Origin: a virus
Strand: one strand, 5' to 3'
Length of the DNA: 34,521 nucleotides
Virus record (IMG/VR): IMGVR_UViG_3300036791_000351
Location: 1 to 34,521 of that record
Part shown: positions 2,293 through 28,135 of the stretch, piece by piece
Layout: every line of letters begins with the position of its first letter
Position numbering within the stretch: position 1 is the first letter of the stretch
Program-made: the position numbers and the translations under genes
Notes under the pieces: generated by a model
Database searches by the model: none
What the model saw: the letters and a program-made list of their open reading frames with translations, nothing else
Told to the model about the DNA's origin: nothing

Positions 2293-2523
2293 ATGGAAAA
2301 CGAACAACAGAAACGCGAAGGCGAAGTCGAGAACTATCCGCTCGACGACGCGCTGATCATCATGCTCGGCGAGATCAATCAGCAGATGACCGCCTTGCAA
2401 GCGCAACGGCAAGGTGCGCTCGTGCTCTTCATCCGCCAGCAGAAGCTGGAGGGCAACTGGCAAGTCGCGGAGAACGGGAAGGAACTCGTGAAAGCGCCCG
2501 CGCTTCCGCTCAAGACCGCATAG
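2293..2523 (+). CDS. Small conserved-type tail-region protein, 76 aa
   Basis: The ATG at 2293 follows GGGAGG at 2283-2288, ten bases after the stop of the upstream tail gene; an in-frame TTG at 2275 lies inside that gene and has no ribosome site. The protein is acidic at its N-terminus and mostly helical, with a Gln-rich central segment (residues about 30-50) that could form a short coiled coil. No domain is recognised. The position between two tail fibre genes suggests a fibre assembly or connector role, but this is inferred from context only. Confidence 0.75.
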   Translation: MENEQQKREGEVENYPLDDALIIMLGEINQQMTALQAQRQGALVLFIRQQKLEGNWQVAENGKELVKAPALPLKTA

Positions 2524-2534
2524 GAGGGACAACC

Positions 2535-5500
2535 ATGTCCACGCAACCGAAGCCGCTGAACTATGCCTTTCCGAACTTCATTCCGGGGCGGCATCGCATC
2601 CCGCCGAACTTCAAGCTCTTCCCCGAAGCGTTCTTCCCCGAACTGAAGGCGGCGAGTCTGCCATCGACGCCGCCGATTCCGCCGACGGTGGCGACGGGCG
2701 ACATCATCACGGCGGGACACGAGAACACCGTCACGACCGCTATAAACGATCTCTGGACAAATGAGCAGTGGATCGCCGCGAACATGCTGGCGGACCCAAC
2801 CACGGCGACCGGAGACATCATGGTGAGGGGTTCTAGCGGACTCACTCGACTCCCCGTCGGCGGCAACGGACAGGTGCTCACCGCCGATAGCACCGTGACG
2901 GCTCTCGGCCTCAAGTGGACGGCTCTCAGCGCGGCTTCCATCGGCGCAGTGCCGACGACGCGGCAAGTGATCGCGGGCGCTGGCATGACGGGCGGCGGAT
3001 CGCTGGCTACCGACGTCACGCTGAACGCGAAGCCGATGGCCGCATCGGGTGCCGCGCACTCTCCCGGCATGGTCCCCGACCCCGGCGCGACGGCGGGCGC
3101 GACTCGCTTCCTTCGCGAAGACGCGACATGGACCGTCGTTAGCGCGAGTGCCATCGGCGCGGTCGCGACGAGCTTTCAGGTGATCGCTGGCCCCGGCTTG
3201 ACGGGCGGCGGTGCGCTCACGGGCAGTAGCGTCATGCTCAGTGCGCCCGTGATGATCGCATCCGGCGCATCGCACGCGGCGGGCCTTGCACCCGACCCCG
3301 GCGCGACGGCGGGCATCACGAGGTACTTGCGCGAGGATGCGACGTGGGTAGCTCTCAGCGCGGCCTCTGTCGGCGCAGTGCCGACGACGACCCAAGTGAT
3401 CGCGGGACCGGGACTGAGCGGCGGCGGTGCGCTCTCGGGGAACGTCACGCTCTCCGCGCCCGTGATGATCGCATCGGGGAGCGGACACGCGGCGGGACTC
3501 GTGCCCGATCCCGGCGCGACGGCGGGCGCGGCTCACTATCTGCGCGAGGACGGGACGTGGGCGGTCCCTCCCGGCGCGGGCGGCGGCATGAACGATCCGA
3601 CGACGACGCTCGGCGATCTGATAGTGCATGGCTCGGGCGGGACGACGCGCTTGCCCGTGGGCGGCAACGGACAGGTGCTCACCGCCGATAGCACCGTGGC
3701 CGCGCTCGGCGTCAAGTGGGCGGCTCCGACGGTCGGCATGACGGACCCGACGACGACGAAGGGCGATCTGATCGTGCATGGCACCGTGACGACGCGGATC
3801 GGCGTCGGCGGCGACGGACAGGTGCTCACCGCCGATTCCACGCAGACGCTCGGCGTCAAGTGGGCCACGCCGACGGGCACCGCGAACTACTGGGTCAACG
3901 GCGCACTGATCGGCACGCAGCCCACACTAAATCTGATCGCGGGCAGCAACATCACGATCAGCGGCGTCGTCACCGGGAGCCGCGTCGATGTCACGATCAA
4001 CTCGACCGCAGCGGGCGGTGCGAATCAGACGCCGTGGACGAGCGACATTGACGCCGCCAGCCATATGTTGAGCAACGCGAGTGCTATCGGCGTGGGCACT
4101 GGAGCCAACACCGCATGGCCGCTCTGGCTGGTCATCAACAGTGCAAGCTCGACCGGACAGGCGCAGATGTGGAACAAAGCATCCGGTGGAGCCAGCGGCT
4201 TCCTACTCGCGGCGGAAGGCGGCACGAACGCTGGCGGCATCATGTTCTGCGGCTCCGCATACGCCGCGCCGACCTGGAGCAGCACGCTCTTCGTCTACAC
4301 GCAAGGCGCGAACGATATCGGCTTCGGCACGGCCAACGTCGAGCGGATGCGGATCACGAAAACGGGGTTGGTGGGCATCGGCACCGCAGTGCCAGCGCAG
4401 CGCGTCACCATCGTCGGCGATGCCCAGAATTGGGCCACGCTTACTCAGACGACTATCTCTATCAGCGACACTGACGCAACGGCGAGCGGTGCGAATGGCG
4501 GGCGTCTGCTGCGCATCATGAACCGCCGCAACACGGGCGTGATTTCGCAGAATCTTACCAGCGCGGACGGCACGAATTTTACGCTCGATCAGACCGGGAA
4601 CGGTGGGCTGTGGGCGTCATTTAACAACGCTTCTTTCTCGATTTCTTTCGCGTCAGCGGGAACGAATCCGGTAGCTATTTCGCCAGCGATTCTCACCGCT
4701 GTAGCCACTGGCGTGGGCATCGGCGTGAGCGTCCCACTCAACACCTTCCACGTTCATGCAGCGGCCAATGAAAACTTACTCGTCGGCCAAGCCGTCTCGA
4801 TTAGTGGGGCGGTTTCAGTCAGTGCCGTCAACGATGCGAACTCAGCCAATACTCCTCTCGAAATACGGGCGAATCCTACTGTCTTCATGGTGGGCAACGT
4901 CGGCATCGGAATGAATCCCAGTTATGCGCTTGACGTGAACGGTGGCGCTCGTTGCTCCGGGGCTTTTTTTTGCAACAGCAGTATAACCGCAAGTCAAAAT
5001 GTCTACGCTAGTGGGAGCGTCCTCGCCAGCGGCGTTGGCAGTACGTTCGGTGGGCCAGCGGGCAGCGCAAGCGCCCCTAGCACCGCGAACACGAACATCC
5101 TTCTGTACAACAATTCGACGGTCAACTGGGCCGGAATCGGCGCGGATGGCGGCGGGAACATGTACTTCAAGGTGGGCACATCCGGCTCTCCCGCTGCGGC
5201 GGTGACGATTCTGGCGAGTAATCAGTTCGTCGGCATCGGCACGGGCGCGACGACTCCTGCGAATCAGTTGACCATCATTCCCGTATCTAACTTTGGCTCC
5301 GCAACGATCACCAGTCAACTCGCAATCGGAGAGCAAAGTAATAACGCCGCCTATCGCTTGAATCTCGGCTACTTCAATGACGGCAACTGGAAAGGATTTG
5401 TTCAGACATACATGAACTCGGGGGGCGCTGCGCTCTTACTCAATCCGAACGGCGGCAATGTGGGCGTGAACTCGACGAGTCCCGCATACCCTCTTACCGT

Positions 5501-6284
5501 ACACGGGCAAGTGGCGTTCTATCACGGAACCCAAAGCTGCGCCTTTTTCCAGACCAGTGCCGGGGCTGCTGGATGGCAGATCGGGCGCTCCATCAACGGC
5601 AACGACCAGAACGATTTCTTCATCTACAACCAAGCAAACAGCACGGTGGCCGTCAGCATCGTCAATACCAATGTCGCCATCAACACCACGAACACGACCG
5701 CACGCTTCACGATCAGCACGTCGGGCTATAGCAGTCCTGCGGCGGGACAGAACAGGGCCAGCGTCTACTTCACGCCGGGAACATGGGGCTTGCAGATCGG
5801 TCACTATGCGGCGGGCGACACATGGTTTCAATCGCAGCGCGACGACGGCAACGGCTCGATGTATAACATTCTTCTGCAACCCATCGGCGGCGGCGTCGGC
5901 ATCGGAATGCAGAGCGGGCCAGCCTACAATCTGCAACTGGCGAACGACTCGGCGGGCAAGCCCAGTGCGAACTGGACGGTGACTTCCGACGTGCGCACAA
6001 AGCGCAACATACGGCCCTATCTCGAAGGGCTGAAGACGCTCTTGCGATTGCATCCGACCTCATTCGAGTACAACGGCGAGGCGGAAACGCCGGAAGGACT
6101 GGAGCGCGTCGGGCTGGTAGCGCAAGATGTCGCCGACGTGATTCCCGGCTGCGTGCAAAAGATCGTGGCTCACATACACGGCGAAGAGACGGAAGTCCTC
6201 GCGCTCAACACGAGCGACTTGCAATGGATGATGCTCAACGCGCTGCGCGAGATCGACACGCGTTTGCGCGAAGCGAATTTATAA
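2535..6284 (+). CDS. Long tail fibre with C-terminal S74 intramolecular chaperone
   Basis: The 1249-residue protein starts at ATG 2535 behind AGGAGGGA (2522-2529). The N-terminal 450 residues contain repeated modules: LREDATW boundaries, GPGLTGGGALTG-like segments and a LPVGGNGQVLTADST module in three copies, as in fibre shafts. The middle is low-complexity Gly/Ala/Ser/Asn beta-rich sequence. Residues 1150-1249 match the peptidase S74 (endosialidase-type) chaperone: SDVRTKRNI with Ser1151 and Lys1156, GLVAQDV and a C-terminal helix. In this family the domain drives trimerisation of the fibre and then cleaves itself off just before the conserved Ser using a Ser-Lys dyad, so mature fibre would end near residue 1150. 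It is presumed to bind the host surface. Confidence 0.88.
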   Translation: MSTQPKPLNYAFPNFIPGRHRIPPNFKLFPEAFFPELKAASLPSTPPIPPTVATGDIITAGHENTVTTAINDLWTNEQWIAANMLADPTTATGDIMVRGSSGLTRLPVGGNGQVLTADSTVTALGLKWTALSAASIGAVPTTRQVIAGAGMTGGGSLATDVTLNAKPMAASGAAHSPGMVPDPGATAGATRFLREDATWTVVSASAIGAVATSFQVIAGPGLTGGGALTGSSVMLSAPVMIASGASHAAGLAPDPGATAGITRYLREDATWVALSAASVGAVPTTTQVIAGPGLSGGGALSGNVTLSAPVMIASGSGHAAGLVPDPGATAGAAHYLREDGTWAVPPGAGGGMNDPTTTLGDLIVHGSGGTTRLPVGGNGQVLTADSTVAALGVKWAAPTVGMTDPTTTKGDLIVHGTVTTRIGVGGDGQVLTADSTQTLGVKWATPTGTANYWVNGALIGTQPTLNLIAGSNITISGVVTGSRVDVTINSTAAGGANQTPWTSDIDAASHMLSNASAIGVGTGANTAWPLWLVINSASSTGQAQMWNKASGGASGFLLAAEGGTNAGGIMFCGSAYAAPTWSSTLFVYTQGANDIGFGTANVERMRITKTGLVGIGTAVPAQRVTIVGDAQNWATLTQTTISISDTDATASGANGGRLLRIMNRRNTGVISQNLTSADGTNFTLDQTGNGGLWASFNNASFSISFASAGTNPVAISPAILTAVATGVGIGVSVPLNTFHVHAAANENLLVGQAVSISGAVSVSAVNDANSANTPLEIRANPTVFMVGNVGIGMNPSYALDVNGGARCSGAFFCNSSITASQNVYASGSVLASGVGSTFGGPAGSASAPSTANTNILLYNNSTVNWAGIGADGGGNMYFKVGTSGSPAAAVTILASNQFVGIGTGATTPANQLTIIPVSNFGSATITSQLAIGEQSNNAAYRLNLGYFNDGNWKGFVQTYMNSGGAALLLNPNGGNVGVNSTSPAYPLTVHGQVAFYHGTQSCAFFQTSAGAAGWQIGRSINGNDQNDFFIYNQANSTVAVSIVNTNVAINTTNTTARFTISTSGYSSPAAGQNRASVYFTPGTWGLQIGHYAAGDTWFQSQRDDGNGSMYNILLQPIGGGVGIGMQSGPAYNLQLANDSAGKPSANWTVTSDVRTKRNIRPYLEGLKTLLRLHPTSFEYNGEAETPEGLERVGLVAQDVADVIPGCVQKIVAHIHGEETEVLALNTSDLQWMMLNALREIDTRLREANL
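2859..2897 (+). repeat. 39-bp direct repeat, copy 1, in fibre gene
   Basis: This stretch is identical to 3660-3698, and a diverged third copy lies around 3806-3840. It encodes the GGNGQVLTADSTV module of the fibre. Near-identity at DNA level, including third codon positions, points to recent duplication or gene conversion and offers a site for recombination that would change the length of the fibre shaft. Confidence 0.85.
3660..3698 (+). repeat. 39-bp direct repeat, copy 2, in fibre gene
   Basis: Identical to 2859-2897 and about 800 bases downstream of it, in the same reading frame. Recombination between the two copies would delete or duplicate about 267 residues of the fibre without breaking the frame. 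Confidence 0.85.
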
Positions 6285-6302
6285 GAGGAGGTCAATAAGT
6301 TC

Positions 6303-6590
6303 ATGACTTACGAGGAAAGCGCAGCCCTGATGATAGATCTGGACTTCCGGGGCAGAATCAAGGTATCCGCACTGAAATACGCGGATAGCATCATGGGCGA
6401 AGCGGAAACGACGCCCGCGCATAACACGCGAGTGCGATGGGCGACCAACTGCATGACGAACCCCGACATGACCGCAACGCAACTTCAGCCGCCCGTCTGC
6501 ATGGACGCCGCCGTTCAGGCCGACGGCGCGGAGATCACCGACGAAGCGCTTCAGGGAAGCGTGGAGGCGACTGTCAATAAGTTGTTGTAA
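6303..6590 (+). CDS. Hypothetical phage protein, 95 aa
   Basis: ATG 6303 follows AGAGGAGG at 6285-6292, just after the fibre stop. The protein is a single small alpha/beta-looking unit with no signal peptide or membrane segment, with Met-rich patches and a helical C-terminus ending in VNKLL. The family is not recognised. It closes the tail transcription unit; it could be a fibre accessory protein, but nothing in its sequence shows this. Confidence 0.7.
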   Translation: MTYEESAALMIDLDFRGRIKVSALKYADSIMGEAETTPAHNTRVRWATNCMTNPDMTATQLQPPVCMDAAVQADGAEITDEALQGSVEATVNKLL

Positions 6591-6721
6591 GCTGCCACCG
6601 CTCGACGCATGACAGCAATAACGGAATTTACACAAAAAGAATAACGACTGGTTACATCGTATGGCTGTTTCGTCGTCAGTACATCAATTGCCCCGGCGTA
6701 ACGTTAGGGAGATGTACCGAA

Positions 6722-13145: not shown

Positions 13146-13574
13146 ATGAACACACTGAAGAAAACAGCGACCCGGAGCACGAAGCGCACCGGATCGCCCA
13201 CGAAGAACATGAGCGGCCTCCCCTACGGGACGGGGTCGATCCAGAAGAGAGGGCGCGTTTATTGGATGATCTATCGCAACGTGAACGGCGACGTCGTCGC
13301 CGCCAACACCGGAACCGACAATCGCGCGGATGCGCAACGCATTCTCGCGCAGCAAGCGCTCGTCACGCTGAGAGCGCGGATGCACGCGCTCGTCGCCATC
13401 ATCGAGAGCGGCAATGAAGCCACGTCGCAAGCGAGTGCAGAAGCCGCCGATCAAAGCGGACACGAAGCTCGGCACGGTGACGAACCCGGATCTCGCCGTC
13501 GATCTGTTCGCGACGATGCTCCAGAGCGTCGAGATCGAGCGGCAAAGGCAACCGCGAAAGGGGGACGCCGCTAA
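13146..13574 (+). CDS. Short protein upstream of recombinase; 3' part possibly out of frame
   Basis: Residues 1-90 look genuinely coded: a basic tail, then GTGSIQKRGRVYWMIYR and a helix with ADAQRILAQQALVTLRAR. This N-terminal pattern resembles the arm-binding domain that opens many tyrosine integrases, here without a catalytic domain. After about 13410 the frame becomes Arg/Glu/Ala-rich with poor codon use while the +1 frame (13414-13641) becomes well coded. The ORF ends in a TAATG junction with the recombinase. Either two genes overlap by 161 bases, or a frameshift joins them. It may help the recombinase as a DNA-binding accessory protein; this is inference. Confidence 0.5.
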   Translation: MNTLKKTATRSTKRTGSPTKNMSGLPYGTGSIQKRGRVYWMIYRNVNGDVVAANTGTDNRADAQRILAQQALVTLRARMHALVAIIESGNEATSQASAEAADQSGHEARHGDEPGSRRRSVRDDAPERRDRAAKATAKGGRR

Positions 13575-13641
13575 TGTCCGCGCCGATGATGAAAGCAAAT
13601 CTGCTCGACGTGCTCGAACTCCAGCGCGTGAGCACGAATAA
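13414..13641 (+). CDS. Small basic protein overlapping recombinase start
   Basis: The 75-residue frame from ATG 13414 has strong G/C third positions up to about 13560 and encodes a basic N-terminus (KPRRKRVQKPP) followed by NPDLAVDLFATMLQSVEIERQRQ, a plausible helix. It then runs 68 bases into the recombinase gene, where its sequence degenerates into Arg/Ala-rich shadow. It could be a separate small gene or the true continuation of the 13146 gene after a +1 shift. Confidence 0.42.
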   Translation: MKPRRKRVQKPPIKADTKLGTVTNPDLAVDLFATMLQSVEIERQRQPRKGDAANVRADDESKSARRARTPAREHE

Positions 13642-15172
13642 GCAAGACCTGAAACGGCAAGAGTACGATCTCGCCGTGAACCGCAAAGAGTACGGCCTGA
13701 ATGCCGTTCGCACGTTCAAGATCAAAGAGAGCGGAGAGAAAGTACTCTCCACCGACGAAGTCGCCGAGATCGTCGCCGCGCTTCCGCGCGTAGCGGGCAT
13801 CAACGTCTCCGCAGTTGACCGCATCGCGCGACCGCAAGGGTTCAGCGATCTCGGCTTCTTCCAGATTTTCGTCGATCTGAAAAAGACGATTTGGAGCAAG
13901 CGCGAAGGCATGATCGAGCCGTGGACGCCGCGCGGACGCAAGACGCTAATGTCGGCCCTCATGCAAGCCGGGAACGAACTGAGCGACTTGAAAGATCGCA
14001 TCGCGTCGAACCGCTACAAGATGCATGAAGAGCGCAAGATGTGCAACCCGACGCCGCCGTACGCGCTGATCTACATCGACAAGTACCTCCGCGATCAAGA
14101 CGGGAAGTATCACTTCGACGCCAAGCCGCAGAGCTTCATCGAAGACCCCATCGAGTCGAGCGTCCCCGGCCTGACGAAGCAACAAGTCGTCATCAACGTG
14201 TTCAATTGGCGCTATCACAATCGCCTGAAGATCTCGAAAATTCTGAAGCGGTTGAACACGAGCGGCGTCCTCACCAACGGAAAGAAGGGGCAGTTCGAGC
14301 CGGGGTTGTGGAGCCGCACCACCATCCAGCAGATGCTCCGCAACAAGCACTACATCGGCGAACACTGGGAGAACGGCGTGCTCGTGTCGTCGGACTGCCC
14401 GCAACTGATCAGCCGCGAAGTCTTCGACGGCGTGCAAGAGATGTCCGCCGCAATGAAGCGCGAGTCGAACGGACGCAACACGACGAAGAACCTCCTGTGC
14501 GGCTTCCTCAAGTGCAAGCATTGCGGACGCAACTACCGCACCACATCGGGGCGCTATCCCGCGTACGTGTGCGGCAACTTCGACTACAAGCGCGGCACGC
14601 AGATCTGCCGCGCGAACGCGCAGATCCGCACCACGAAAATTGAGAACGTCGTATGGGCCGCGATCTGGGCGTTTCTCACGCAGCCCGATCTTCTGCTTGC
14701 CAACGCGAAGGCGTATTATGATGCCTTGCCGACGCCAGCCGGAACCGCCAAGCTCGAAGCCGAAGCCGCCGCGCTCAACGCGAACATCGAGCGCACGCAG
14801 ATGATGACGCAACTCGGCACTTGCGATTTCAAGAAAGGGAACGCCGACATCCTCGCGTGGATGCTGCGCGTGAAGCAGATCGAAGCCGAACTGAAAGCAT
14901 CGGGGCGCGTGATGACGTTGCCCGCCGCGAGTCTGATCGAAGCCGGATGCCGGATGATCGCCGACGCGCAGTTCGAGCCGTCGAAGTTCGACACGCGCCG
15001 ACCGATCCTAGAGAAGCTCGTCGATCTGAAGTTCACCTACGACAACGGAGTCGTAGAAATCGAGGGGAAAGTGCCCGTCGCCGAAAAAGCACGAAAGTGC
15101 GATAGGCGTGTTCACGGCGATATCACTTCCGTGCTGTACATCCCCTTCTATCTAAAGGAACGGGTTGCGTGA
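13574..15172 (+). CDS. Large serine recombinase, probable phage integrase
   Basis: The 532-residue protein has the serine resolvase/invertase catalytic domain at residues 9-145 with LQRVSTNKQDLKRQ (nucleophile Ser20, Arg18) and AVDRIARP (Arg83), then the recombinase domain (about 150-300, with IYIDKYLRD and RTTIQQMLRNKHYIGEHWENG), a zinc ribbon with Cys314, Cys317, Cys333 and Cys345, and a C-terminal coiled-coil region. This is the layout of large serine integrases, which recombine attP and attB. It suggests a temperate phage. ATG 13574 has GGGGG at 13560-13564; ATG 13586 or 13589 are alternatives. A strong terminator follows directly. No attachment site could be recognised. Confidence 0.88.
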   Translation: MSAPMMKANLLDVLELQRVSTNKQDLKRQEYDLAVNRKEYGLNAVRTFKIKESGEKVLSTDEVAEIVAALPRVAGINVSAVDRIARPQGFSDLGFFQIFVDLKKTIWSKREGMIEPWTPRGRKTLMSALMQAGNELSDLKDRIASNRYKMHEERKMCNPTPPYALIYIDKYLRDQDGKYHFDAKPQSFIEDPIESSVPGLTKQQVVINVFNWRYHNRLKISKILKRLNTSGVLTNGKKGQFEPGLWSRTTIQQMLRNKHYIGEHWENGVLVSSDCPQLISREVFDGVQEMSAAMKRESNGRNTTKNLLCGFLKCKHCGRNYRTTSGRYPAYVCGNFDYKRGTQICRANAQIRTTKIENVVWAAIWAFLTQPDLLLANAKAYYDALPTPAGTAKLEAEAAALNANIERTQMMTQLGTCDFKKGNADILAWMLRVKQIEAELKASGRVMTLPAASLIEAGCRMIADAQFEPSKFDTRRPILEKLVDLKFTYDNGVVEIEGKVPVAEKARKCDRRVHGDITSVLYIPFYLKERVA

Positions 15173-20596: not shown

Positions 20597-21250
20597 ATGC
20601 AGAATGCAGTTTTCGGACTATTCGTCCCGATCTCTGGCGGTGGTGGTGGCGGTGAAGTTATGCCGCCGATCTACTATCCGCCGCACCCGTGGTTTCCGGG
20701 GCATCGCCCGCCGCACGTCGGCGGTGGTCCGATGCCGCCGCAGCAGCCTGTCGATCCGGGTTACGGCGTGCCCGCGCCACCGCTCGGTTTCTGGGGCGGC
20801 ACTCCACCGGACTACATCGGCGGCGGGCCAATGCCGGGATGGCCGGGGCATCCGGCGCACCCGATCTACCCGACGCGGCCTGTCGATCCGGGTTACGGCG
20901 TGCCCGCGCCACCGCTCGGTTTCTGGGGCGGGCTTCCGCCCGATTACATCGGCGGTGGTCCGATGCCGGGACGCCCGCCGCACGTCGGCGGTGGTCCGAT
21001 GCCGGGAAATCCGCCCGTCGCTGGCTGGCCCCCGGTCGCAATGCCGCCCATCTATCTGCCGCCCCCGTCGTCTGGTGGCCCGCCCGCGCCAGATCCTCCC
21101 GTGCAGATATCTTTACCGATTGTCGTAGGCTGGACGCTTCAATTCATTCCCGGCATCGGTTGGGTGTTGGTCCCGCCGACTCCCGGCGCAGAGCCGCCCG
21201 CGCATGTTGGGGGTCAGCCGCCCACACCAGAGCCGAAGACCACCTTCTAG
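20597..21250 (+). CDS. Pro/Gly-rich repeat protein
   Basis: The 217-residue protein begins at ATG 20597 with CGAGGAA at 20582-20588. It is dominated by Pro and Gly, with repeated phrases HVGGGPMP and two copies of a 44-residue unit starting PVDPGYGVPAPPLGFWGG (residues 51 and 95) and PPDYIGGGPMPG. The last 50 residues are more hydrophobic (SLPIVVGWTLQFIPGIGWVLVPP) and may fold. Proline-rich proteins of this general kind occur near the packaging genes of some phages; their role is unknown. It may be an extended structural or host-interaction protein. Confidence 0.72.
   Translation: MQNAVFGLFVPISGGGGGGEVMPPIYYPPHPWFPGHRPPHVGGGPMPPQQPVDPGYGVPAPPLGFWGGTPPDYIGGGPMPGWPGHPAHPIYPTRPVDPGYGVPAPPLGFWGGLPPDYIGGGPMPGRPPHVGGGPMPGNPPVAGWPPVAMPPIYLPPPSSGGPPAPDPPVQISLPIVVGWTLQFIPGIGWVLVPPTPGAEPPAHVGGQPPTPEPKTTF
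20746..20931 (+). repeat. 54-bp exact direct repeat pair, 132-bp period
   Basis: 20746-20799 and 20878-20931 are identical over 54 bases, inside the Pro-rich gene; similarity continues at lower level to the end of each 132-bp unit. The period is a multiple of three, so unequal recombination would lengthen or shorten the protein in frame. Confidence 0.85.
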
Positions 21251-21568: not shown

Positions 21569-21916
21569 ATGCCGGAAGGCGCACACCGTGAATGCTCTCA
21601 TCCAACTTGCCGCGAGTATGCAACGCATGGCGGATTCTGCGCAGCGCACAACGCACGCACTGCACGGCCTGAGTTTCTTAGCGCAGATCGCACGGTCAAC
21701 CCCACGGGCGCACGCTTCCGGCGACTGCGCCACTCCTTCCTCGTGCGCCATCCGGTGTGCAATATGTGCAAGCGCGAAGAGAGCACCATTCTCGATCACG
21801 TCATTCCGCATCGCGGCATCGCGTTGCTGTTCTGGAATCAGCGCAACTGGCAAGGCTTGTGCGTTCACTGTCACGCCGTCAAGACCCATCGCGAAGTGCT
21901 CGGTCATGACGCGTAG
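21569..21916 (+). CDS. HNH endonuclease
   Basis: This 115-residue protein is a typical phage HNH nuclease from the packaging region. An N-terminal Cys-rich finger (CSHPTCREYATHGGFCAAH) is followed by HPVCNMC (Cys64, Cys67), LDHVIPHRGIALLFWNQRNWQGLC with Asp76, His77, His81 and Asn93, and CHAVKT (Cys101, His102). In HK97-like phages the equivalent protein, encoded beside the terminase, stimulates specific cos cleavage by the terminase complex. ATG 21569 follows a weak GACGAG site. Here it is separated from the small terminase by the 22223-25323 cassette. Confidence 0.88.
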   Translation: MPEGAHRECSHPTCREYATHGGFCAAHNARTARPEFLSADRTVNPTGARFRRLRHSFLVRHPVCNMCKREESTILDHVIPHRGIALLFWNQRNWQGLCVHCHAVKTHREVLGHDA

Positions 21917-22222: not shown

Positions 22223-22864
22223 GTGAGCCGCGCGGCCCGTTTCACCGCTCAAACACTCGAACCGATGCCGACCAACCCAGTGGTGAGCCGTTTACCCGTG
22301 AATGGCGGCACTTCTGACGGCATTCTGCGCGTCGAGCTTTGGGCCATCACGCGCGTGATCCCGTACGCGAGGAACGCGCGGAAGATTCCGCCCGCCGCCG
22401 TCGCGAAGGTTGCGGCATCGCTGCGCGAATTCGGATGGCGGCAACCGATTGTGGTCGATGCCGACGGCGTGATCGTGTGCGGGCACGCGCGGCTTCTCGC
22501 CGCGCAGCAACTCGGCATGATCGAAGTCCCCGTGCATGTGGCTCACGATCTGTCGCCCGCGCAGATCAAGGCGTATCGGCTGATGGACAATCGCTCTCAC
22601 CTCGAAGCCGAATGGGACGACGCGCTTCTGGCCGTCGAGGTCGGCGAATTGAAGGGCATCGTCGATCTGTCGTTGACGGGGTTCGACGCCGCCGAGATCG
22701 ACCGACTGATGCGCAGCGATCCGCTGGCCGCGCCGGGAGACGCGCCCGTCGAGGAAGCGAGAATCGCCTTCGGCGTGATCATCGAGTGCGCCGACGAGAC
22801 GGAGCAAATCGGACTCCTGAAGGAATTCGCCACGCGAGGACTGCAATGCCGCGCACTCATGTAA
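22223..22864 (+). CDS. ParB-like domain protein
   Basis: The 213-residue protein starts at GTG 22223, five bases after AGGGAGA (22211-22217); ATG 22265 is an alternative. Residues 36-125 form a ParB/sulfiredoxin-like domain: VIPYARNARKIPPAAVAKVAASLREFGWRQP in part, IVVDADGVIVCGHARLLAAQQLG with the GHxR motif (residues 87-90), and LSPAQIKAYRLMDNR. Residues 145-213 are an extra C-terminal region. Phage proteins of this type are DNA-binding or nucleotide-hydrolysing factors and are often fused to or encoded beside DNA methyltransferases. It opens the unusual cassette and overlaps the next gene by 19 bases. Confidence 0.85.
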   Translation: MSRAARFTAQTLEPMPTNPVVSRLPVNGGTSDGILRVELWAITRVIPYARNARKIPPAAVAKVAASLREFGWRQPIVVDADGVIVCGHARLLAAQQLGMIEVPVHVAHDLSPAQIKAYRLMDNRSHLEAEWDDALLAVEVGELKGIVDLSLTGFDAAEIDRLMRSDPLAAPGDAPVEEARIAFGVIIECADETEQIGLLKEFATRGLQCRALM

Positions 22865-23997
22865 TCCGCGAGACGACGCTGATGCGCTCTCCGCGCGTGA
22901 TGCAACTGTCGGCGCTCTTCGACATCGCGCCCGAGAAGCACATGCGGCTCGAATGGGACGCCGATCTGCCCATCGAGCAGCGCGACTGGAACGTCGGCCT
23001 GATCGTGGGTCCGTCGGGCTGCGGCAAGACGAGCATCGCGGGCGAACTCTTCGGCGTGTCGATGGTCGCGGGCTACGACTGGCCGCGCGATCATTCGGTG
23101 CTCGACAGCTTCCCCGAAGCGATGCCCGTGCGCGATGTCGTCGAAGCGCTTTCGAGCGTGGGCTTCAACTCGCCGCCCGCATGGCTGCGTCCGTTCCATG
23201 TGTTGTCGAACGGCGAACAGTTCCGCGTGACGTGCGCCCGCGCCCTCGCCGAGAATCCCGCGCTCGTGGTGCTCGACGAGTTCACGAGCGTGGTCGATAG
23301 GCAAGTCGCGAAGGTGGCCGCGCACGCGATCCAGAAGACCATCCGCCGACGCGGACGGCAGTTCATCGCCGTCTCGTGCCACTTCGACATCGTCGATTGG
23401 TTACAGCCCGACTGGGTCTACGAGCCAGCCACGGGCGCGTTCCAGTGGAGGGAGCTTCAGCGGCACCCGGAACTTTGCTTCGAGGTCCGCGAATGCACTC
23501 GCGAACTCTGGCCGATGTTTAGGAGCCATCACTATCTGAGCACCGAACTACAGAGCGCGGCCAAGTGCTTCGTCGCGTGCATCGACGGCCAGCCGATTGC
23601 GTTCAACTCAGTGCTGCATCTGCCCCACGCGTACACCCGGAACATCAAGATGGGTCACCGTCTGGTCGTTCTGCCCGACTGGCAAGGCGTCGGACTCGGC
23701 GGGCGCTTCGACGACTTCATCGGGCAGTGGCTGCACGAGCGCGGCTACCGCTACCACAACACGGTGGCGCATCCGGCGATCATCGCGTACTATCTGCGCT
23801 CTCCGCGCTGGCGGCGTCTCTACGCGGATCACACGAGCGGCAACGGACGGCCCGCGATCCGCGCGGGCAAGGGCGCGAACAAAGGGCGGGCGCACGCGCA
23901 ATTGCAGACGCGGCGGCTCAACACATTGAGCTTCGAGTACTGTCCGGTGGCTGCTTCAGTGAAGCCGCTGAACCAGATGCAGGAGGTAATCGCATGA
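22846..23997 (+). CDS. ABC-type ATPase fused to GNAT acyltransferase
   Basis: The 383-residue protein has an ABC ATPase domain at about 10-205: Walker A GPSGCGKTS (55-63), signature LSNGEQFR (120-127), Walker B VVLDEF (141-146) and a switch His179. No membrane partner is encoded, so it is not a transporter. Residues 210-335 are a GNAT domain: HHYLS, then RLVVLPDWQGVGLGGR (272-287) with the acyl-CoA-binding QGxGxG motif. The combination is found in other phages; the GNAT part recalls Mu Mom, which modifies adenine in DNA. A DNA-translocating or clamping ATPase that positions an acyltransferase is a reasonable model. ATG 22846 has GAGGA at 22835-22839 and lies inside the end of the ParB-like gene. 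Confidence 0.85.
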   Translation: MPRTHVIRETTLMRSPRVMQLSALFDIAPEKHMRLEWDADLPIEQRDWNVGLIVGPSGCGKTSIAGELFGVSMVAGYDWPRDHSVLDSFPEAMPVRDVVEALSSVGFNSPPAWLRPFHVLSNGEQFRVTCARALAENPALVVLDEFTSVVDRQVAKVAAHAIQKTIRRRGRQFIAVSCHFDIVDWLQPDWVYEPATGAFQWRELQRHPELCFEVRECTRELWPMFRSHHYLSTELQSAAKCFVACIDGQPIAFNSVLHLPHAYTRNIKMGHRLVVLPDWQGVGLGGRFDDFIGQWLHERGYRYHNTVAHPAIIAYYLRSPRWRRLYADHTSGNGRPAIRAGKGANKGRAHAQLQTRRLNTLSFEYCPVAASVKPLNQMQEVIA

Positions 23998-24395
23998 AGA
24001 CGTTTCTCTGCGGCAAGATTCACGGGCTGCGCGTCACCGACAAGAGCGTCGAGTACCACGGCTCCGTCGGCGTCTCGCCCGAACTGCTCGAAGCGGCGGG
24101 CATGGAACCGTTCGAGCGCGTGCTCGTCGCGAATCTGAACAACGGTCAGCGATGGTGGACGTACATCATCGTCGGCGTGGCGGGCGAGTTCCGCCTGAAC
24201 GGCGCAGCCGCGCGGCTCGGCGAGGTGGGCGACCGCTGCTTGCTGATGACCTTCGAGACGGCGCATCGACGCCCGAAGACACGCGTGGTTCACGTCAACG
24301 AGTCGAACCAGATAACGAACTGCGAGGCGATCAACGGGCATGGCGATATCGACCTGAAGATCTTCATGCCGACCGACGATCTGGTGTTGCCGTGA
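23994..24395 (+). CDS. PanD-like aspartate 1-decarboxylase homologue
   Basis: The 133-residue protein aligns by eye with bacterial aspartate 1-decarboxylase over its first 90 residues. Matches to E. coli PanD: Lys8 and His10 (GKIH), Tyr21, the self-cleavage pair Gly23-Ser24 that makes the pyruvoyl cofactor, Arg53, Thr56 and Tyr57 (GQRWWTY), Asn69 (NGAAA) and VGD. All are one to three positions from the E. coli numbering. PanD converts L-aspartate to beta-alanine, a precursor of pantothenate and CoA. The C-terminal 40 residues differ from PanD. It overlaps both neighbours by four bases (ATGA/GTGA). Substrate here is unknown; another amino acid or an attached moiety is possible. Confidence 0.82.
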   Translation: MKTFLCGKIHGLRVTDKSVEYHGSVGVSPELLEAAGMEPFERVLVANLNNGQRWWTYIIVGVAGEFRLNGAAARLGEVGDRCLLMTFETAHRRPKTRVVHVNESNQITNCEAINGHGDIDLKIFMPTDDLVLP

Positions 24396-25078
24396 GAATT
24401 CTCGAACTGGGCAACTACGTGGTGCCAGCCTACGCGGGCATGATTCTCGCGGAGCAAGGGCACGAGATCGTGAAGTGGGTCGGCGACGTCGATCCGATCC
24501 AGACGCTGAATCACGGGGACGCGCTCTGGGCCTGGATCAATCAGGGGAAGACGCTGGTCAAGCGCGGTGCGCGATTCGCGCCCGAAGTGCTCGATCAGTT
24601 CGACGCCGTGATCGACAATTTCCGGCCCGCAACGCTGGAACGCTTCGGCCTCGATCCGGCGCGACTCGCCGCGACCTACGGCGTGCGATGGGTGAGTATG
24701 CGGGCCGACGTGGGCGAGGTGAGCTTCGACGCGCTGGCGCAGATGCGGGCGTGGGGCGATCACGCGCCCTACATGCCGTTCTACATCGGCGACACGAGCG
24801 CGGGCTTGTGGCTGGCCTTCAAGCTGCTCGCCAGCCGGGAGTGCGGGCACTTCACGCTCTTCCAGGCGACGTGTCTCGCGAAGCTGGTCGAGGGCGAGAT
24901 GGTCGTCGCCGTCGAACGCGATGGCAAGCGCGTGCCGTGGGACCGCGATCTCTACGACTACACCGAAGAGGACGGCGTCGTCATCGAGTACCGCGACGTG
25001 GTCTACCGGGAGACGCCGCGCGACGATGCATGGCGGGCAGAGCATCTGCGGCATCGCGACGGGCGCTACGTGATTTGA
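24392..25078 (+). CDS. Compact CaiB/BaiF-type CoA-transferase homologue
   Basis: The 228-residue protein begins at GTG 24392, overlapping the previous stop. The N-terminal half follows the class III CoA-transferase pattern: ILELGNYVVPAYAGMILAEQGHEIVKW, DPIQTLN, WINQGKT, VIDNFRPATLERFGLDPARLAATY and VRWVSMR. The family's catalytic Asp, which carries the acyl group in formyl-CoA transferase, is matched by Asp134 in YIGDTSAGLW. Family members are usually about 400 residues, so this one is roughly half size and lacks most of the usual second domain. It would move CoA between carboxylic acids; its partner may be the acyltransferase two genes upstream. The 3' end overlaps the convergent ASCH gene by 13 bases. 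Confidence 0.82.
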   Translation: MRILELGNYVVPAYAGMILAEQGHEIVKWVGDVDPIQTLNHGDALWAWINQGKTLVKRGARFAPEVLDQFDAVIDNFRPATLERFGLDPARLAATYGVRWVSMRADVGEVSFDALAQMRAWGDHAPYMPFYIGDTSAGLWLAFKLLASRECGHFTLFQATCLAKLVEGEMVVAVERDGKRVPWDRDLYDYTEEDGVVIEYRDVVYRETPRDDAWRAEHLRHRDGRYVI

Positions 25079-25323
25079 GGGCCGAGATGAAACACGAAGA
25101 ACGGACCCGGATGATCGGCGGCGTAGCAGTCGGAGCAGTCTTCGGGCAGTTGCTCCATGCGCGTGAACTCTTCGACGCGCAGAACCGGGAAGCGGGCGCG
25201 TCCGTTGAGGCTCAATCGGTCCCCGGCCTTGATGTTCCGGTAGCGCGATCCGGCGCGGATCTCGTAGGTCTTCGTGCCCGCCACGATCTGATTGAAGTAC
25301 TTCTGCTTGATCAAGAGCAGCAT
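25066..25323 (-). CDS. ASCH-domain protein, convergent to cassette
   Basis: The 85-residue protein is the only confident minus-strand gene. LIKQKYFNQIVAGTKTYEIR followed by IKAGDRLSLNG is the ASCH signature (a PUA-like fold that binds nucleic acid or modified bases). Lys18 in AGTKT corresponds to the catalytic Lys of the E. coli ASCH enzyme YqfB, which removes acetyl from N4-acetylcytidine; the adjacent YqfB Thr is replaced by Glu21, as in most ASCH proteins. The C-terminus (SDCYAADHPGPFFVFHL) completes the barrel. Its tail-to-tail placement with the CoA-transferase-like gene suggests a reader or eraser of the modification made by the cassette; this is inference. Confidence 0.8.
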   Translation of the reverse strand: MLLLIKQKYFNQIVAGTKTYEIRAGSRYRNIKAGDRLSLNGRARFPVLRVEEFTRMEQLPEDCSDCYAADHPGPFFVFHLGPQIT

Positions 25324-25349: not shown

Positions 25350-25814
25350 ATGAGGGGAATGAAGCCGACGCCGACGCCGATCAAGATTCTGCGGGCGGGC
25401 GCGAAGCAAGCCGAGAAGCTGAAGAAGAAAATCATCCCGACTCCCGGCGACTTATTCGAGCCGCCCGACTGGTTCAGCGCGGATCAGAAAGAAGCCTGGA
25501 GCTACGCCATCGAGAACGCACCGCGCGGCGTGCTGCGGCGGATCGACAAGGCCGTGCTGGCCGCGTTCATCATCGCGCAAGACGTGCATCAGAAGGCGTC
25601 GGTGGCGATGCAGCAGACCACGCTCTTGGTCAAAAGCCCGAAGCAGGATTTGCCGATGCAGAATCCGTATCTGCCCATCGTCAATCGGCAGTACCAACTC
25701 ATGTTGCGCGGTGCGTCGGAACTCGGCTTCACGCCGTGCAGCCGCGCCCGCATCGAGAGCGGCAATGTGCCGCAAGCCCCGGCTGGCGACTGGGAGGATG
25801 TCGAGAGCGCATGA
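25350..25814 (+). CDS. terS: Small terminase subunit, P27 family
   Basis: The 154-residue protein matches the P27-type small terminase: a basic N-terminus, PTPGDLFEPPDWFSADQKEAW, a helical core (VLRRIDKAVLAAFIIAQDVHQKA), LVKSPKQDLPMQNPYLPIVNRQ and a final helix ELGFTPCSRARI. It recognises phage DNA and hands it to the large subunit. ATG 25350 has GAGG at 25341-25344; ATG 25359 is an alternative. The large subunit follows after three small genes rather than directly. Confidence 0.86.
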   Translation: MRGMKPTPTPIKILRAGAKQAEKLKKKIIPTPGDLFEPPDWFSADQKEAWSYAIENAPRGVLRRIDKAVLAAFIIAQDVHQKASVAMQQTTLLVKSPKQDLPMQNPYLPIVNRQYQLMLRGASELGFTPCSRARIESGNVPQAPAGDWEDVESA

Positions 25815-25974: not shown

Positions 25975-26124
25975 ATGAAAGTCAAAGCTCTGCATGACGT
26001 CGTCGTCGGCGTCGAGGAATACAAAGAGGGCGAGATCTTCCAGTGCTCGACGGAGGATGGACAATCGCTGATCGAGCAGGAACTCGCCGTCGCCGTCGAG
26101 GAAGAAAGCGAGGACGAAGCATGA
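25975..26124 (+). CDS. Small acidic protein, 49 aa
   Basis: ATG 25975 follows GGAGGA at 25966-25971. A short beta-like segment (MKVKALHDVVVGVEEYKEGEIF) resembles the first strands of small phage capsid-decorating or head-tail proteins beginning MKVKAL, and the N-terminal part of the connector at 31477 has a similar layout. The C-terminus is very acidic. It overlaps the next ATG (ATGA). Function unknown. Confidence 0.62.
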   Translation: MKVKALHDVVVGVEEYKEGEIFQCSTEDGQSLIEQELAVAVEEESEDEA

Positions 26125-26429
26125 CGCCGCAGCAGACCTATCGACCCAGTCGGTGCAACTACATCTACGCGTCGTACATCGGCAGCAACGGCGTCTACGA
26201 AATGGGGCCGGATGATTGGTCGGTTGAGCGCACCGCTTCCGGCGTGTATGTCATCACGCACAATCTCGGCCACGCGCACTACGTCGCGGTGGTCGCGGGA
26301 CTCACGGGCGCGAATCTGTCGGAAGGCGCGATCCAGAGCTACGACGAGAACACGATCACGGTCGGCATGTTCACCGCCGGATCAGTCGCCGACGCCCGAT
26401 TCTCGCTGATTGTGTTCGCCGTGGACTGA
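26121..26429 (+). CDS. Beta-rich hypothetical structural-type protein, 102 aa
   Basis: ATG 26121 overlaps the preceding stop and the TGA shares one base with the large terminase start. The sequence alternates short beta strands (GVYVITHNLG, HYVAVVAGL, NTITVGMFTAG, FSLIVFAVD), a pattern seen in small phage fibre-tip or head decoration proteins. No family is recognised. Its position between terminase subunits is unusual for a structural protein. Confidence 0.65.
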   Translation: MTPQQTYRPSRCNYIYASYIGSNGVYEMGPDDWSVERTASGVYVITHNLGHAHYVAVVAGLTGANLSEGAIQSYDENTITVGMFTAGSVADARFSLIVFAVD

Positions 26430-28135
26430 TGTCGAAGATCGCCGCGCCGACATTGCCGTTCGTCGAGCGTGCGCTAGAGTATGCCCGCGCCGTCGTCGCC
26501 GACCAGATTCCAGCGTGCCTCTGGGTCCGCCGCGCGTGCCAGCGGCATCTCGACGATCTGGAGCGCTTCAAGGGAAAGGACTCGCCGTACTACTTCGACG
26601 CCGCGCAAGCGAATCGCGTGTGCGACATCGTGCAGCGCTTCCCGCACATCCGGGGCGTCTGGGCGAACGCGCGGAAGCGGCTCGAATTGGAGCCGTGGCA
26701 GTGCTTCATCATCGTGGTCGTCTTCGGCTGGCAATGCACGGCGACGAAGACGCGGCGGTTCCGCATCGTCTACATCGAGATTCCGCGCAAGAACGCGAAA
26801 TCCACACTCACGAGCGCGATTGGTCTGTATCTGCTGGCGTGCGACGGGGAGCAAGGGGCGCACATCGTGAGCGCGGCGAGTGCGCTCCATCAGGCGAAGG
26901 TGATCTTCACCGACGCGCAACTGATGGCGAGGCGCGAGGCGGGCTACCGTTCGCGCTTCGGCGTCGAGGTTCTCGCGCATGTGATCGCGGTGCCCGAAAC
27001 GGCCAGCAAGTTCGAGGCGTTGAGTGCGGAGTATTCGAGCCTCGACGGCCTGAACATTCACGCCGCGCTGATCGACGAGCTTCACGCACACCCCAGTCGG
27101 CAACTCTGGGACGTGCTCCAGACGGCGACCGGATCGCGGGCGCAGCCGCTCATCTGGGCGATCACCACGGCGGGCCTGAACCGCGCGGGCATCTGCTACG
27201 ACCAGCGCGGGCATGTGATCGACATCCTCAACGGCTCAGTCGAAGACGACACGTACTTCGGAATCATCTACACGCGCGACGACGACGACGACCCGTTCGA
27301 CGAGAGCACCTGGATCAAGGCCAACCCGAACTACGGCGTCTCGATCTACCCGGAGAGTTTGCGCAGCGTGGCGAAACGCGCGATGCAAATGCCGTCGGAG
27401 CAGAGCGCGTTTTTCAACAAGCACCTGAACATCTGGGTCAACGCCGCGATTACGTGGCTTCCGGCTGGCGTGTGGGACAAGTGCGCCGATCCGAAGCTCG
27501 ACATCGCCGACTTCGCGGGTCAGGAGTGCTACATCGGGATCGACCTCGCGCTGCGCAACGACATCGCCGCGCTCGTGATCGCGTTCCCGCCCGAAGGCAA
27601 GCGCGACTGGTGGGCGTGCTTCGGACGCTACTATCTGCCCGAAGACACGGTCAACCGCGCCGAGAACGGGCACTACCAAGCGTGGGAAGCGGCGGGCCGA
27701 CTGACGGCGACACCCGGAGTGATCACCGACTTCGACTACATCATCGCCGCGCTCGGCGACTTCGCCGCGCAGTTCGACACGCGCGAGGTCGCGCTCGATC
27801 CGTTCGACGCGGGACCGCTGATCGTGGACATCGAGAAGGCGGGACTGCGCAAGCCCGTCGAAGTGCGGCAGACCGCGCCGAACATGTCGCCCGCGATGGT
27901 CGAACTGGAGGGCCTGGCCCTTTCGGGCAAGATCCGGCATGATGGCGATCCCGTTCTCGCGTGGATGATGTCGAACGTCAAGGTGCAGCGGTCGGGCGAT
28001 CTGATCAAACCGACGAAGGACTCCGACGAGAAGAAGATCGACGGCGTCGTCGCGCTGCTCATGTGCATTCACCGGGGCATGTACCGCTCTGGCCCCAGAG
28101 CCGATTACGAGAACCGTGGCTTATGGTCGATCTGA
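26429..28135 (+). CDS. terL: Large terminase subunit
   Basis: The 568-residue protein is the ATP-driven DNA packaging motor of the HK97-like terminase type. The ATPase domain has a Walker A variant IPRKNAKST (118-126) and Walker B ALIDELHAHP with Asp216 and Glu217, followed by WAITTAG, the coupling motif. The nuclease domain starts near 366 with CYIGIDLALRNDIAAL (Asp372), continues with ALDPFDAG, and has Asp in KKIDGVVALLMC near the C-terminus. The last residues overlap the portal gene by 13 bases. ATG 26429 is in a TGATG junction. Confidence 0.94.
   Translation: MSKIAAPTLPFVERALEYARAVVADQIPACLWVRRACQRHLDDLERFKGKDSPYYFDAAQANRVCDIVQRFPHIRGVWANARKRLELEPWQCFIIVVVFGWQCTATKTRRFRIVYIEIPRKNAKSTLTSAIGLYLLACDGEQGAHIVSAASALHQAKVIFTDAQLMARREAGYRSRFGVEVLAHVIAVPETASKFEALSAEYSSLDGLNIHAALIDELHAHPSRQLWDVLQTATGSRAQPLIWAITTAGLNRAGICYDQRGHVIDILNGSVEDDTYFGIIYTRDDDDDPFDESTWIKANPNYGVSIYPESLRSVAKRAMQMPSEQSAFFNKHLNIWVNAAITWLPAGVWDKCADPKLDIADFAGQECYIGIDLALRNDIAALVIAFPPEGKRDWWACFGRYYLPEDTVNRAENGHYQAWEAAGRLTATPGVITDFDYIIAALGDFAAQFDTREVALDPFDAGPLIVDIEKAGLRKPVEVRQTAPNMSPAMVELEGLALSGKIRHDGDPVLAWMMSNVKVQRSGDLIKPTKDSDEKKIDGVVALLMCIHRGMYRSGPRADYENRGLWSI

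Follow-up and report, generated by a model that had tools for sequence, protein, structure and literature searches.

An ATPase of the ABC type paired with a GNAT acyltransferase has been predicted by Aravind's group to acylate a base in DNA, the acyl group being uncharacterised (Iyer et al. 2013, cited in PMC7824862). Here we analyze a 34.5 kb IMG/VR virus record, IMGVR_UViG_3300036791_000351, which represents a temperate tailed phage and is called the window in the following (the whole stretch of 34,521 nucleotides). It encodes the same ABC-ATPase/GNAT pairing as a fused protein (ABC-GNAT), and Tenacibaculum phage pT24 is among the phages of the predicted system as well as among our matches. 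In the window the ABC-GNAT gene follows the gene of a ParB-like protein and is itself followed by genes for a PanD-like aspartate decarboxylase (PanD) and a half-size class III CoA-transferase (half-CaiB), on which the gene of an ASCH-domain protein converges. No account of PanD or CaiB together with ABC-GNAT in phages was found in the open-licence literature.

The arrangement is not confined to the window. In Rhodococcus phage Jace gp85-gp88 encode ParB, ABC-GNAT, PanD and half-CaiB in the window's order, with the gene of the terminase small subunit (TerS) a few genes on, and in a tblastn search Jace was the sole GenBank phage with PanD and half-CaiB together beside ABC-GNAT. A half-CaiB profile retrieved 24 IMG/VR loci and five contigs of metagenome-assembled genomes, to which a PanD profile added more; after removal of near copies 28 non-redundant half-CaiB loci remained, mostly metagenomic fragments whose genes were called as mechanical open reading frames (ORFs). 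Wherever the contig reached far enough, ABC-GNAT lay upstream of half-CaiB (25/25) and ParB directly upstream of ABC-GNAT (23/23), and half-CaiB was never seen without ABC-GNAT where the contig could show the latter. PanD was present in 23 of the 28 loci; among the remaining five, one locus is truncated. Furthermore, the protein distances of ABC-GNAT, ParB and half-CaiB were correlated among the loci (observed values reached by 0 of 1000 permutations; rho 0.66 for ABC-GNAT versus half-CaiB). Unrelated phages with proteins ~50% identical share this gene order; the arrangement is not due to chance, and a chance neighbourhood was ruled out by the gene order kept in 28 loci. Evidently, the cassette is a conserved unit in which half-CaiB is co-inherited with ABC-GNAT. 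The sequence-only reading had proposed to look for co-occurrence of PanD- and CaiB-like genes with ABC-GNAT in other phages, and the outcome is strongly in its favour, the unit including the convergent ASCH gene. In the group of loci to which L024 (878-4138) belongs, PanD and half-CaiB are flanked by two ABC-GNAT genes, and L014 (6275-6898, + strand) carries a second, GNAT-only copy between ParB and the full ABC-GNAT. A PanD match in L006 turned out to be false.

ParB and ABC-GNAT form a widespread core, to which PanD and half-CaiB are an add-on. At least 592 ABC-GNAT relatives were obtained from IMG/VR by profile search. Among 81 non-redundant ABC-GNAT loci that lack half-CaiB, 75 have ParB as the gene just upstream, and none of these 81 had PanD within the stretch searched. 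Only three of the 80 ABC-GNAT loci kept, a non-random sample of those nearest to the window, contained PanD and half-CaiB; neither gene was found elsewhere in related phages without the pair, the half-CaiB search having been run without a positive control. The half-CaiB-linked members cluster when 106 ABC-GNATs are placed in a tree: 22 fall in one clade of 33, with two further placements, and the presence of half-CaiB and PanD takes 8 changes on this tree versus 19.4 with shuffled labels. Otherwise, terminase small subunits are frequent 3' of ABC-GNAT (judged by sequence and position and family-searched in part). The proximity to the terminase, to which the sequence-only reading had drawn attention, is a common property of the core.

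The ParB-like protein was assigned by phrog_620 (E 5e-47), its match to Pfam ParB_N being sub-threshold (E 1.6e-4). ABC-GNAT matches phrog_11143 (E 1.7e-103), ABC_tran (2.5e-8) and Acetyltransf_7 (3.9e-6) and thus shows the feature by which the predicted DNA-acylation family is defined, a phage-encoded ABC ATPase linked to a GNAT domain. The Walker A motif G55-x-SG-x-GK61, the signature L120S-x-G123, the Walker B residues D144E145 and H179 are invariant in 42 homologues, and so is Q280-x-x-G283 of the GNAT acyl-CoA motif; these conserved residues support a putative ATPase activity and acyl-CoA binding. An AlphaFold2 (AF2) model of the protein reached a predicted local distance difference test score (pLDDT) of 89.5. 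The matches of the full model in Foldseek were all ABC proteins, and the search therefore gave no structural neighbour for the GNAT domain.

Of the two supply enzymes, PanD matches PF02261 above the Pfam cut-off (E 2.1e-29). Throughout 18 phage homologues, as well as in E. coli PanD, the processing site G23-S24 and R53, T56, Y57 and N69 are conserved without exception and K8 almost so, which means that the G-S site and the active-site Lys, Arg, Thr, Tyr and Asn of PanD are all in place. The intact catalytic residues support a predicted decarboxylase activity. Compared with bacterial PanD, the phage protein keeps every residue of pyruvoyl processing and of the active site; it differs in lying within a phage operon and in scoring below the NCBIfam equivalog cut-off (TIGR00223 panD, 77.7 vs 106 bits). 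Phage PanD was also seen without ABC-GNAT. In L185 and L186 (PanD at 4001) its neighbours are predicted amidoligases (PF12224), which further hints that phages may use PanD products for conjugation. In L190 and L193 (PanD at 4001) it stands by TauD-type dioxygenases and a fatty acid desaturase; the families were checked in L190, and L193 looks alike.

Half-CaiB matches PF02515 (E 8.4e-10) over profile positions 4-109 of 366 only. In an hhalign comparison with one full-length class III enzyme its residues 2-154 were aligned, placing D134 at the class III Asp motif and F112-D113 at the GYD motif, and the alignment stopped at about residue 224 of 427 of that enzyme. The SFD and GDT-x-x-GL motifs are kept in 23 aligned sequences and D134 of the latter motif is invariant; the aligned Asp is the catalytic residue of known class III enzymes. 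The model shows the class III fold (pLDDT 85.4; Foldseek matches to class III enzymes, E 3.8e-9), with low confidence at ~165-195, where the small domain would begin, and a Foldseek search of the viral library gave no convincing relative. With class III CoA-transferases such as CaiB, formyl-CoA transferase and Rv3272, half-CaiB thus has in common the N-terminal CoA-binding fold, the N-terminal motifs and the catalytic Asp, whereas it measures 222-238 aa instead of 345-430 aa and is without the small domain and the C-terminal half. A frameshifted or truncated full-length gene was ruled out, as the protein is half-size in all 23 aligned members. If the proposed role is true, half-CaiB would be a minimal class III CoA-transferase.

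The ASCH protein of the window scores 22.3 bits with PF04266, above the Pfam cut-off of 21.2, and its best ASCH match among the PHROGs is phrog_986, annotated as RNA-binding. A first tblastn survey, which detected the gene in near relatives only, had suggested that ASCH is unrelated to the cassette; this was overturned by a Pfam ASCH search and a profile survey. According to these counts, which depend on profiles built in this analysis, 15 of the 28 half-CaiB loci have an ASCH gene ≤2 kb 3' of half-CaiB; it is convergent in 13, and in 12 of these it is ≤300 bp away. Downstream of ABC-GNAT without half-CaiB the count was 16/76 (Fisher p 0.003) and upstream 1/72. A third ASCH-like type (seeds L042, L058, L107 and L130) is counted here, assigned not by Pfam but by its motif and a weak phrog_625 match, which it has in common with the window ASCH. 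The latter belongs to another subfamily than the ASCH of most neighbours and occupies the same slot. The ASCH gene is accordingly a part of the cassette. Its closest functional reference is E. coli YqfB, an ASCH amidohydrolase acting on N4-acylcytosines (PMC6972931), with which it shares the ASCH fold and the K-x-x-E/T-x-R signature. In the window ASCH and its aligned neighbours, however, the position of the YqfB nucleophile Thr24 is taken by Glu, leaving the Lys21-Thr24-Glu74 triad incomplete, and hydrolysis by the YqfB mechanism is therefore not expected. Of the two roles offered by the sequence-only reading, reader or eraser, the reader fits better. One convergent ASCH protein (L174, 5002-6261, - strand) has an N-terminal region that weakly matches radical SAM (E 0.0025).

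As outlined in Table 1, ORFs and family searches bore out the five genes that had been named at 22223-25323, with their strands and domain assignments. Consecutive + strand genes of the cassette share a few bases at their ends, and PanD has a strong Shine-Dalgarno sequence on its 5' side (aggaggtaatcgcATG). A RecT-like protein, a portal, a head protease and a major head protein are encoded in the window as well. Upstream of the cassette are an HNH endonuclease gene (PF01844, phrog_144; 21569-21916, +) and a repetitive ORF rich in proline and glycine, with no Pfam or PHROG match (20597-21250, +); a 128-aa ORF between TerS and TerL (26043-26429, +) has no Pfam match. PADLOC returned generic matches only.

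Table 1 Coordinates of the cassette, its context in the window and the phrog_9240 genes of three cultured phages
Record	Feature	Position	Strand	Remarks
Window	Integrase	13574-15172		
Window	ParB/Srx-like protein, core gene 1	22223..22864	+	GTG start with Shine-Dalgarno; alternative ATG 22265
Window	ABC ATPase-GNAT acyltransferase fusion, core gene 2	22846..23997	+	
Window	PanD-like pyruvoyl-dependent aspartate decarboxylase, supply gene 1	23994..24395	+	
Window	Half-CaiB (half-size class III CoA-transferase), supply gene 2	24392..25078	+	
Window	ASCH-domain protein	25066..25323	-	Convergent with half-CaiB; 13 bp overlap at half-CaiB end
Window	TerS (terminase small subunit), context	25350..25814	+	PF05119 E 3e-11
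Window	TerL (terminase large subunit), context	26429..28135	+	TerL_nuclease E 7e-48, TerL_ATPase E 3e-27
L039, Pseudomonas phage Komp_PAO1_1	phrog_9240 gene	6074-6691		
L040, Gordonia phage AnClar	phrog_9240 gene	2312-2962		Annotated there as tRNA-methyltransferase
L050, Porphyromonas phage	phrog_9240 gene	6128-6601		

On balance, we favour the reading that the locus is a phage acyl-modification cassette, consisting of the core and a dedicated acyl-CoA supply arm. PanD would decarboxylate aspartate, or a close analogue, to beta-alanine, onto which the catalytic Asp of half-CaiB would load CoA; the acyl-CoA made is probably beta-alanyl-CoA, or else a related aminoacyl-CoA. ABC-GNAT, helped by the ParB-like protein, may bind phage DNA in an ATP-dependent manner, and its GNAT domain would pass the acyl group to the exocyclic amine of a base at about the time of packaging. 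The modified base may then be bound by the convergent ASCH protein, in the role of reader, regulator or shield. Substrate, acyl-CoA, product, acceptor, timing and ASCH role are what we infer here; DNA is favoured as the acceptor by the ParB partner, the terminase proximity and the published prediction (PMC7824862). The succession of decarboxylation, CoA loading and acyl transfer, drawn up in the sequence-only reading, fits the conserved active sites, its substrates being putative.

Several points weigh against this reading. DNA as the presumed acceptor is the weakest step of the mechanism. Half-CaiB does not have the small and C-terminal parts which complete the interlocked class III dimer, and because of this its CoA-transferase activity is not assured. 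In four half-CaiB loci PanD is absent from the cassette and from the rest of those records, and PanD tracks the ABC-GNAT phylogeny poorly (rho 0.19), as if it could be lost or swapped. ASCH is missing from about half of the half-CaiB loci, and the similarity of the GNAT domain to Mu Mom is not significant (hhalign E 0.88). Four loci manage without PanD, which makes it a supply enzyme and no obligate partner.

Other explanations were weighed on the same evidence. TmcA is an ATPase/GNAT fusion which acetylates N4 of tRNA cytosine, so the logic of such a fusion is known for tRNA, and ABC-GNAT could resemble it or acylate a host or phage protein, with ASCH as an RNA-binding partner. RNA binding is frequent among ASCH/PUA domains, in line with the annotation of phrog_986, and YqfB provides an ASCH protein for N4-acylcytosines (PMC6972931). 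The ParB-like partner and the frequent terminase adjacency nevertheless fit DNA better, and the window yielded no tRNA gene; RNA or protein appears to us an unlikely acceptor. A different possibility is that PanD and half-CaiB feed the host CoA pool or an unrelated small-molecule pathway, their adjacency to ABC-GNAT reflecting a shared need for CoA. PanD does catalyze the beta-alanine step of CoA biosynthesis, and from the four loci without PanD it follows that the host pool can serve. However, gene order and overlap stay fixed despite wide divergence, and half-CaiB is confined to ABC-GNAT loci. Beside the cassette, moreover, a non-exhaustive search of the neighbours brought up no further genes for pantothenate or CoA. 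We consider this explanation improbable.

To much the same degree we doubt that half-CaiB is a non-enzymatic adaptor which binds CoA or acyl-CoA and hands acyl-CoA to the GNAT domain: the missing C-terminal half and the low-confidence region where the small domain would begin agree with such a role, but the catalytic Asp and both motifs are kept in the 23 sequences. E. coli PanD is activated by the GNAT-fold protein PanZ, and a PanZ/PanM-like GNAT domain promoting PanD maturation or regulating PanD would make the locus a regulated decarboxylase. This role is highly improbable and was rejected, because ABC-GNAT mostly occurs without PanD, as in the 81 loci without half-CaiB, over the stretch searched, and in the four half-CaiB loci with no PanD anywhere in the record.

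To the proposed acyl-modification cassette a variant can be added. Three cultured phages whose hosts are unrelated (Pseudomonas, Gordonia and Porphyromonas; Table 1) carry a formyltransferase-fold gene (phrog_9240) directly 3' of ABC-GNAT, and the ABC-GNATs of these phages form a monophyletic, fully supported clade of their own. Inspection shows that the three phrog_9240 proteins lack the Asn found in the N-x-H motif of formyltransferases, so that formyl transfer by them is itself only putative. The occurrence of a formyltransferase-fold gene in the supply position of a separate ABC-GNAT clade suggests that the enzymes adjoining ABC-GNAT tune the transferred group. Tentatively, this would extend to a modular base acylation, in which a shared ParB/ABC-GNAT writer is combined with interchangeable supply or tailoring enzymes, PanD and a minimal CoA-transferase for a beta-alanyl group and the formyltransferase-fold protein for another, resulting in novel amino-acylated bases with ASCH readers.

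If true, the proposed cassette defines a chemical route, from amino acid via acyl-CoA to base, by which a widespread system of phages would make the modification that has remained uncharacterised ever since the system was predicted. CoA-derived DNA acylation would join the few known hypermodification chemistries and give phages an undescribed means to disguise their DNA, and the cultured phage Jace, which grows on Rhodococcus erythropolis, makes the reading directly testable. Mu Mom, which forms N6-carbamoylmethyl-adenine, is likewise a GNAT-superfamily phage protein tied to DNA modification, and its H48-Y49 pair lines up with H229-Y230 of ABC-GNAT. ABC-GNAT differs from Mom in its canonical Q-x-x-G-x-G motif for acyl-CoA and in the ABC ATPase fused to the GNAT domain; the Mom family phrog_1384 was not among its matches, and a Mom homologue was rejected on the hhalign value. 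Compared with the predicted ABC-ATPase/GNAT system, as described in the citing paper, the window locus has further components: PanD and half-CaiB, which are candidates for a supply arm, and the convergent ASCH gene.

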